DNA of 64,000 bases, taken from the NCBI RefSeq assembly GCF_000331735.1, contig NC_020126.1:9241501-9305500 (forward strand), read 5' to 3'. The stretch is from Myxococcus stipitatus DSM 14675 (GTDB lineage Bacteria > Myxococcota > Myxococcia > Myxococcales > Myxococcaceae). The position numbers and the translations under genes were made by a program. A model generated the notes under the pieces. The model saw only the letters and a program-made list of their open reading frames with translations. It did no database searches and was not told the origin of the DNA. Of this stretch, positions 16,932 through 18,609 are shown piece by piece. Within the stretch, counting starts at the first letter, position 1. Each line of letters begins with the position of its first letter.

Positions 16932-17299
16932 ATCCACTCCATTTGATTCGGGTCCGTGCCTTCCCGCCTCCCTGAAGAGTGGGCACACAGGTGTCCAAAC
17001 TCACGGGGCGGGTCACCCGGCGGCCCATCCGTCCGCCTGCTCAGTTAACCCTCTGAAGGGCTCGCGAACAGCACTCGATGTGAGCACCAGCGACCCAAGC
17101 TTCTTCACCGCAGAAGCCTACTTCCTCGATAGGGCTCGACTTCACTCGAGGAACGAATGACCACGGCCCGAACGTGTAGAAATTGACCGAAGGGGCCCGG
17201 CTCACGGACACACCGAGCAGCTCGGGTCACGTGACTCGCGGGCCGACCCGAGCACGTCCGGTGTCTCCAAACCCAGACATGCGAGGCCTGTCGCGCCGA
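16932..17299. other. Non-coding stretch upstream of repeat array
   Basis: No convincing gene. It contains an inverted repeat, TTCCTCGA (17122-17129) and TCGAGGAA (17146-17153) with 16 bases between, which could be a weak hairpin or regulator site. Otherwise I see nothing in it. Confidence 0.4.
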
Positions 17300-17590
17300 G
17301 CGCCGAGGGTGCACCACGCAATTCCTCGAGCACCGACGGCCCTCGGACAATTCGGCGAGCCCCGCGGGCGCACAACGCAAGTCCTCGAGCACCGACGGGA
17401 CAACGCCCTTCGCCGAGCGCCGAGGGCGAACAGCGCAGCTCCGCGAGCACCGACGGGACAACGCCCTGCGCCGAGGGCAAACAGCGCAGCTCCGCGAGCA
17501 CCGACGGGACAACTCCCTTCGCCGAGCACCGAGGGCGAACAGCGCAGCTCCGCGAGCACCGAGGGTGCACAGCACGTCTCCGCTGCGCCC
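17300..17590. repeat. Tandem ~58-bp repeat array
   Basis: Five head-to-tail copies recognised by the core GAGCACCGACGG, starting at 17328, 17387, 17445, 17496 and 17554: periods of 59, 58, 51 and 58. The best-conserved part is CGCAGCTCCGCGAGCACCGA. Each full unit also carries AGGGCG and CGCCCT, which can pair. Copies differ by a few substitutions and one deletion. The array begins to decay at the left end. It sits directly after the 3' end of the minus-strand peroxiredoxin gene. No gene in it is convincing, although the repeat stays open in some frames. Confidence 0.85.
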
Positions 17591-17622: not shown

Positions 17623-18609
17623 CTACCGCTTCTTCTTCGCGACACCCTTCTTGGCTGGAGCCGCCTTCTTCGCAGCGCCCTTCTTGGCCGAAGCCGTCTT
17701 CTTCACAGCGCCCTTCTTCGCAGCGGCCTTCTTGGCCGGAGCCGTCTTCTTCGCAGCGGCCTTCTTCGCAGCGCCCTTCTTGGCCGGAGCGGCCTTCTTC
17801 GCAGCGCCCTTCTTGGCTGGAGCCGCCTTCTTCGCCGAAACGCCCTTCTTCACCGGAGCAGACTTCTTCGCAGCGGCCTTCTTCTCCGGAGCCGCCTTCT
17901 TCGCAGCGCCCTTCTTCGCCGGAGCAGCCTTCTTCGCCGGAGCCGCCTTCTTCACCGGAGCCGTCACCACCGGCGCGGCCTCCTCCTCGACCGGAGCAGC
18001 CTTCTTCGCCGCCGCCTTCCGCTTCACGGGCTCGAACTTCGTCACGACCGCGGGCGGGGTCACCGGCGTCTCGGAGACAGGAGCCTCCTCCGCCGACACC
18101 ACCGTCTCCTGCGCCGAAGCGCTCGCGTCTAACGCGGCCGAACCGGCCACACCCAGCGCCGCGAGCACCTCCGCGACATGGCCCGTCACCTTCACCTTCG
18201 GCCACGCCTGCTTCACCTTGCCATCCGGCCCGATGAGGAACGTCGCCCGGGTGATGCCCAGGAACTTCCGCCCATACAGCGACTTCTCACCCCAGACACC
18301 ATAGGCATCACACACCTGGTGCTCGGTATCCGCCAGCAGCGGGAACGGCAGGCTGAACTTCGTCGCGAACTTCCGGTGGCTCGCGGTGCTGTCCGCGGAC
18401 ACGCCCAGCACCACCGCACCCGCGCCCTCGAGCGCCGAGTGCTCATCCCGAAAATCACACGCCTCCGTGGTGCATCCCGGCGTGTCATCCTTCGGGTAGA
18501 AGTAGAGGACGACGTGCTTCCCCGCGAACCGCGAGAGCGTCACGGTGTTGCCGTCCTGGTCCTGAAGCTGGAAGTCGGGAGCCGCGTCACCTGCTTGGGG
18601 CATGGGCAT
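17623..18609 (-). CDS. PrxQ/BCP peroxiredoxin with lysine-rich histone-H1-like tail
   Basis: 328 residues from the ATG at 18609 (GGAG five bases upstream). Residues 1-~152 are a bacterioferritin-comigratory-type peroxiredoxin: VVLYFYPKDDTPGCTTEAC, with peroxidatic Cys46 and resolving Cys51 five residues apart as in PrxQ, then VLGVSADSTASHRKF and TFLIGPDGKV. It should reduce peroxides using thioredoxin. The remaining ~175 residues are far from the normal family: a Ala/Glu/Pro linker, then repeated AAPAKKAA / KKGAAKK units like eukaryotic histone H1 and bacterial HU-tail proteins, expected to bind DNA or RNA. The gene's coding repeat is highly GC-biased. Fusion is in frame with no sign of a frameshift. 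Confidence 0.92.
   Translation of the reverse strand: MPMPQAGDAAPDFQLQDQDGNTVTLSRFAGKHVVLYFYPKDDTPGCTTEACDFRDEHSALEGAGAVVLGVSADSTASHRKFATKFSLPFPLLADTEHQVCDAYGVWGEKSLYGRKFLGITRATFLIGPDGKVKQAWPKVKVTGHVAEVLAALGVAGSAALDASASAQETVVSAEEAPVSETPVTPPAVVTKFEPVKRKAAAKKAAPVEEEAAPVVTAPVKKAAPAKKAAPAKKGAAKKAAPEKKAAAKKSAPVKKGVSAKKAAPAKKGAAKKAAPAKKGAAKKAAAKKTAPAKKAAAKKGAVKKTASAKKGAAKKAAPAKKGVAKKKR

Follow-up and report, generated by a model that had tools for sequence, protein, structure and literature searches.

The tailed prxQ gene of Myxococcus stipitatus DSM 14675 encodes a complete PrxQ (BCP-type) peroxiredoxin that continues into a long basic extension, histone-H1-like in its composition. The gene lies on the minus strand of the window, by which is meant the whole 64,000-nucleotide stretch of DNA that was analysed, and its features are collected in Table 1. 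On balance, the product is best viewed as an ordinary thiol peroxidase that is held by the charge of its tail on nucleic acid, most likely the DNA of the nucleoid.

Table 1. Features of the tailed prxQ gene, in window coordinates.
Feature	Position	Strand	Basis
prxQ-H1 tail gene, whole ORF, 328 aa	17623..18609	-	ORF reading; orthologues
PrxQ/BCP peroxiredoxin domain, residues 1-155	18145..18609	-	Pfam, NCBIfam, PDB sequence/fold matches, AlphaFold model
Peroxidatic Cys46 in P-x3-T-x2-C	18472..18474	-	motif reading; role from family knowledge
Resolving Cys51 (Cys46 + 5)	18457..18459	-	Cys-pair reading; role from family knowledge
Linker, residues 156-195, Ala/Val/Pro/Glu-rich	18025..18144	-	composition
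Histone-H1-like Lys/Ala/Pro tail, residues 196-328	17626..18024	-	composition, repeats, frame, conservation, model

The reading frame opens with an ATG at 18609, with a further in-frame ATG at 18603, and closes with a stop codon at 17625-17623. The N-terminal part of the protein matches the AhpC-TSA family (PF00578) with 147.7 bits against a cut-off of 26 (E 2.1e-43), and the NCBIfam model NF006960 (PRK09437), at 166.3 bits with a cut-off of 140, places it within PrxQ/BCP. Another PrxQ model, NF053650, gives the top score for the protein, although this lies under its own cut-off (189.5 of 260). The PxxxTxxC motif with a resolving cysteine five residues further on is found here and in all 71 complete tailed orthologues of the family, and the Cys46 and Cys51 columns are both invariant in an alignment of 49 sequences; the protein also contains a third cysteine, Cys100. 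In the AlphaFold model the domain is folded, with ten-residue blocks at pLDDT 92-97 but 79 at residues 41-50, and Foldseek ranks 9a4d_B and 5enu at the top, followed by the PrxQ of Xanthomonas campestris. The complete PrxQ domain with Cys46 and Cys51 that had been reported in the first-pass annotation is thus confirmed by Pfam, NCBIfam, the motif and the model. The genome contains 18 matches to the AhpC/TSA family, and among the eight that were read, including the window gene, it alone has a long basic tail; the C-terminal end of another of the eight (L005) is a short A/P/K-rich stretch.

Beyond residue 155 the protein continues for 173 residues, comprising 58 alanines (34%), 46 lysines (27%) and 16 prolines, with a computed charge of about +38 at pH 7. 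The earlier description of a PrxQ fused to an H1-like repeat tail holds for this extension, of which the first 40 or so residues form the linker and the last 133, from about 196 to 328, consist of KKAAPAKKGAAKK-type repeats. Within the basic-repeat part of the gene, Tandem Repeats Finder detects arrays with periods of 15, 18, 33, 48 and 81; all 46 lysines are encoded by AAG, and the alanines by GCC, GCG and GCT. At E <= 0.001 a Pfam scan of the protein gave AhpC-TSA and Redoxin and no other family, neither HC2 nor the H1 globular domain, so the tail is H1-like by composition and is not a member of the linker histone H1/HC2 families. No AT-hook (RGRP) is seen in it by inspection, and it contains two arginines. 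An out-of-frame or pseudogene origin of the tail was considered and rejected, as the other two frames are either Arg-rich with stops or Gly/Glu-rich, and all 71 complete family tails are net positive. AlphaFold gives the tail pLDDT blocks of 44-66 and places no secondary structure past residue 151, so that, by prediction only, it would be disordered when unbound. The linker region of nine sequences (L009-L017) contains, by eye, a recurring stretch V-T-K/R/M-F-(E/D)-x2-K-R-K, which was seen in none of the other family tails inspected in the same way. Just 3' of the gene, at 17294-17562, there is a 58-bp tandem repeat of 4.7 copies with 81% matches, which did not turn up when the other 87 loci of the family were compared; the genome contains one more exact copy of its core 16-mer, at another place.

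Within the myxobacterial family, 88 of 96 genomes have a PrxQ orthologue at E <= 1e-30, and one orthologue was read per genome, with two paralogues (L097 and L098) kept outside the counts. When a tail is taken to be 18 or more residues beyond residue 152 of the domain, carrying a net charge of at least +4, 72 of the 88 orthologues are tailed and 16 are not. The record of one of the 72 (L096) covers only part of the domain, and this sequence was used neither for the tree nor for the pair statistics or the simulation comparison. The 71 complete tails range from 21 to 236 amino acids (median 59), with a Lys fraction of 0.14-0.33 (median 0.24) and a net charge of +4 to +44 (median +15), the shortest being 21-27 amino acids with net +4 to +6. 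All 27 orthologues of the host genus are tailed, with 50-236 residues past domain residue 152. A tree of the PrxQ domain contains one clade of 64 sequences, with support 87/83, in which every member is tailed and the basic frame is kept. The tail-less family members lie outside this clade, as do seven further tailed sequences, six of which form a group from one other genus. Gene neighbours are also shared: an upstream 164-aa protein is found at 61 of the 88 loci, a 215-aa protein at 64 and a downstream 183-aa protein at 51, some loci being too short to contain these neighbours. As relatives share the tailed arrangement, many of them with the same gene neighbours, it is not a product of chance.

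The sequences of the tails point to selection on a lysine-rich, basic composition rather than on an exact sequence or length. pN/pS was computed for 131 pairs of tailed orthologues from the family whose domains are equal in length and 95% or more identical; it is 0.442 in the tail and 0.119 in the domain. Lysine is the best retained tail residue (0.91), followed by arginine (0.88), alanine (0.83), proline (0.75) and glycine (0.71), with valine (0.62), glutamate (0.61), threonine (0.51) and serine (0.47) kept less well. These pair statistics lean towards constraint, since the aligner favours Lys-Lys matches, mispaired repeats inflate pS and the pairs share ancestry. In a simulation of neutral drift to 70% GC, the Lys fraction starts at 0.26 and has dropped to 0.14 after 0.3 events per site and to 0.04 after 1.0; the 71 real tails, by contrast, hold it at their median of 0.24. 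The net charge in the simulation declines from +38 to about +11 and reaches a plateau at around +11 to +15. Drift towards a high GC content creates Arg codons, so charge alone cannot tell real tails from drift. The stop counts of the simulation likewise say little, as a stop would only shorten the tail, which leaves the Lys fraction as the useful measure.

How far tailed PrxQ proteins extend outside myxobacteria had been raised as a check on the first reading, and they prove not to be confined to this group. K/A-rich tails are present at four of 20 other loci of the phylum (L179, L186, L187 and L191), which is not a rate as these loci were mostly chosen for long frames. Among 80 further PrxQ relatives from the genome_contigs set, 77 have no tail and three do (L099, L100 and L140). 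Both L099 and L100 are myxobacterial, the latter being Archangium, and the record of L140 is titled as a Lysobacteraceae MAG. The record of L099 is titled Comamonas sp. KCTC 72670, but its printed tail is identical to that of L029 and it is possibly mislabelled. In the family of L140, eight of ten genomes have a match and all eight loci read as tailed, with 54-228 amino acids (L307 being a partial match). In its order, PrxQ is matched in 186 of 200 genomes, of which the 30 best-placed loci were read; the eight tailed ones are the members of the L140 family and the other 22 are without a tail, including four at 64-76% domain identity. To explain where tails occur, the PrxQ-domain tree requires six changes (5-7 in the bootstraps), although the starred branches force only two; this tree is weak at depth, has long branches that meet, and holds L140 without its relatives L301-L307. 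The tail is a mark of certain clades; it was probably gained more than once and afterwards kept.

Some other PrxQ genes contain an in-frame TGA. In relatives from another family of the order (L196-L198) and from one other genome (L192), the TGA coincides precisely with the codon position of Cys46, which makes these genes candidates for a selenocysteine PrxQ. Some members of the host genus with larger genomes (for example G069, G064, G057 and G068) have two PrxQ-like genes, of which the second contains a single such codon in frame.

The H1-like tail is not specific to PrxQ. The motif KKxAxxKK, written in AAG codons, occurs at 25 places in the 10.35 Mb genome, against four in a reversed control, and eight of these are in the prxQ gene. 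The remaining 17 fall in 13 ORFs, ten of which have K/A-rich segments, whilst three (L199, L207 and L212) look like ordinary or chance occurrences, L212 reading as ribosomal S21. The ten bearers are Obg, an RNase R-type protein (at its C-terminus), an RluD-type pseudouridine synthase, topoisomerase I (at its N-terminus), a HEAT/DNA-alkylation protein, aminopeptidase P, a methyltransferase, an EF-hand protein, a short H1-like protein (L214) and a long protein (L223). Pfam scans covered eight of the ten, L214, L223 and S21 were read by eye, and names that go beyond Pfam domains are the analyst's own. Nucleic acid or ribosomes are what several of these proteins work on, though not all of them. 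Across the host genus two of them were compared (L235-L261 and L262-L288). All 27 Obg sequences have a K/A-rich tail of 109-323 amino acids, and all 27 RluD-type synthases a short basic one, with 24-51 amino acids and net +6 to +17, although for some members of the genus the Lys fraction of the latter is down to 0.07-0.09. The EF-hand protein (L204, 224 aa) has its EF-hands at the C-terminal end, whilst its N-terminal half is H1-like and matches HC2 weakly, under the cut-off; from this arrangement it may be a calcium-linked nucleic-acid binder. L214, of about 64 amino acids, is very rich in Lys, Ala and Thr, and the C-terminal half of L223 is extended and K/A/P-rich.

For the tailed PrxQ, family knowledge and the residues present suggest that Cys46 would reduce hydrogen peroxide or an organic peroxide and then form a disulfide with Cys51, which would in turn be reduced by thioredoxin. 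The tail, with about +38 per monomer and without a predicted fold, may bind the phosphate backbone in a manner that is not sequence-specific, as its composition and the precedents of other C-terminal tails, that of histone H1 among them, suggest. Gain and loss of repeats would let its length drift, presumably because only the overall basic, lysine-rich character matters. DNA is a plausible ligand by analogy, and is ranked first because of the precedents of CarD, PhaF, AlgP and Hc2. The removal of peroxide beside DNA might then reduce Fenton damage, which is the weakest step, and the "chromatin-guarding" function that was initially put forward would lie one step further than DNA binding. Some observations count against a nucleoid location: like tails on aminopeptidase P and the methyltransferase of the same genome indicate that a tail need not mean DNA, 16 of the 88 family orthologues manage without one, and the tails of 21-27 amino acids with net +4 to +6 may not suffice to keep a protein bound to DNA at physiological salt.

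Such a tail could also be received by RNA, ribosomes or a different polyanion, because Obg, RNase R, the RluD-type synthase and the aminopeptidase also carry K/A-rich segments. Binding chiefly to RNA or ribosomes, with the enzyme guarding the translation machinery, appears unlikely. The basic tails on every Obg and RluD-type synthase of the genus (27 of 27 in each case) and the RNase R-type protein of this genome are in keeping with it, as is the chlamydial Hc2, which is reported to have a higher affinity for RNA than Hc1 and to repress translation more strongly (PMC2848022). However, topoisomerase I and the HEAT/DNA-alkylation-type protein of the same genome bear basic segments as well, and nothing examined connects PrxQ with ribosomes. 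Attachment to polyphosphate, or to a general polyanion pool, would place the enzyme on polyphosphate granules and is distinctly improbable. Its model is AlgP of P. aeruginosa, a protein with a KPAA-repeat tail that is reported on these granules and whose tail is required for granule spacing; yet, in the same account, peptides derived from that tail bind DNA, and without polyphosphate kinases AlgP appears to contact the nucleoid (PMC9239181). Nothing here connects PrxQ with granules.

The tail might also be a low-complexity stretch that is prone to slippage and almost neutral to selection, as is typical of myxobacterial genes rich in GC. This would account for the spread in length from 21 to 236 amino acids, the tandem repeats, the absence of a tail from 16 of 88 orthologues, the faster evolution of the tail (pN/pS 0.44 compared with 0.12 in the domain) and the ten other genes with K/A-rich segments. 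We consider it very improbable, given that 64 of 64 core-clade members retain the tail in the basic frame, that lysine is the best-kept residue, that simulated drift quickly lowers the Lys fraction and that a distant lineage is tailed too. A role in solubility, or in the control of oligomerisation or thioredoxin access, rather than as an address, is scarcely to be expected: charged disordered tails can serve as solubility tags, but most PrxQs in the wider sets (77 of 80, 16 of 20 and 22 of 30) do without one.

If the tailed PrxQ is indeed held on the nucleoid, it would be a clear example, from bacteria, of peroxide removal by an enzyme stationed at the DNA itself. The series of tail lengths within one family, from none to 236 amino acids, would then allow a direct test of the link between charge, localisation and DNA protection, and H1-like tails are perhaps a portable add-on of several myxobacterial enzymes. 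More tentatively, it is quite possible that bacteria have, twice at least and probably more often, made PrxQ into a nucleoid-bound "chromatin peroxidase" by means of an H1-like tail, with the dose of charge tuned by repeat expansion, as a prokaryotic parallel to the nuclear peroxiredoxins.

Protection against peroxide whilst bound to DNA is a property of Dps, which works like the proposed tailed enzyme but has a ferritin fold and is unrelated to PrxQ. The idea that the tailed PrxQ substitutes for Dps was rejected, as the genome has three ferritin-fold matches, of which two pass the NCBIfam cut-off for Dps. No pattern of replacement between the PrxQ tail and Dps is visible across the phylum, where PF00210 is matched in 178 of 195 genomes, a family that also takes in ferritins, Dps having been distinguished in the window's genome only. 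One Dps match (L234) lies about 0.85 kb from an AhpC/TSA gene (L002, AhpC-type by eye) on the same strand, at genome positions 2073310-2074982.

A close counterpart in fold and active site, the X. campestris PrxQ (PDB 5iiz, 3gkn), is matched by sequence, shares 46-47% identity over about 150 columns as a fold match and has its cysteine pair five apart, but its chains of 160-163 residues are too short for a tail of the kind found in the window. The yeast nuclear thiol peroxidase Dot5 (PDB 2a4v) also matches the window PrxQ in sequence and fold, and Plasmodium has a nuclear peroxiredoxin, PfnPrx, that the title of its paper calls genome-wide chromatin-associated. Both are eukaryotic, unlike the window protein, and no C-terminal H1-like tail was seen described for either. 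The concept of a chromatin peroxiredoxin is thus already known in eukaryotes, whereas no description of a bacterial peroxiredoxin with an H1-like tail was found among the titles and abstract openings listed by searches of an open-access library.

Parallels for the tail come from bacterial proteins with other functions. The size of chlamydial Hc2 is reported to vary as repeats rich in lysine are gained or lost in frame (PMC2848022), which resembles the variation in tail length amongst the family PrxQs. PhaF and AlgP of Pseudomonas have an N-terminal part followed by a disordered basic repeat tail that is reported to bind DNA (PMC3574117 and PMC9239181, respectively) and that positions a cargo. 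They differ in that the cargo is a storage or polyphosphate granule, and the AlgP repeat is KPAA compared with KKAAP/KKGAA in the window PrxQ. CarD of myxobacteria is an RNA-polymerase-binding regulator, unlike PrxQ, and CarDMx and CarDSa have AT-hooks (PMC9304148). Its H1-like or HMGA-like tails are nevertheless reported to serve as DNA-binding modules (PMC4374960, PMC8156234, PMC9304148), the HMGA-like domain conferring DNA binding in vitro and probably nucleoid localisation (PMC4374960). The C-terminal domain of CarD is described as replaceable and has been exchanged for the C-terminal region of human H1, and that of A. dehalogenans has a natural H1-like region (PMC9304148). As with the window PrxQ, a folded domain is here joined to a disordered, K/A/P-rich C-terminal tail, and in the same bacterial group.
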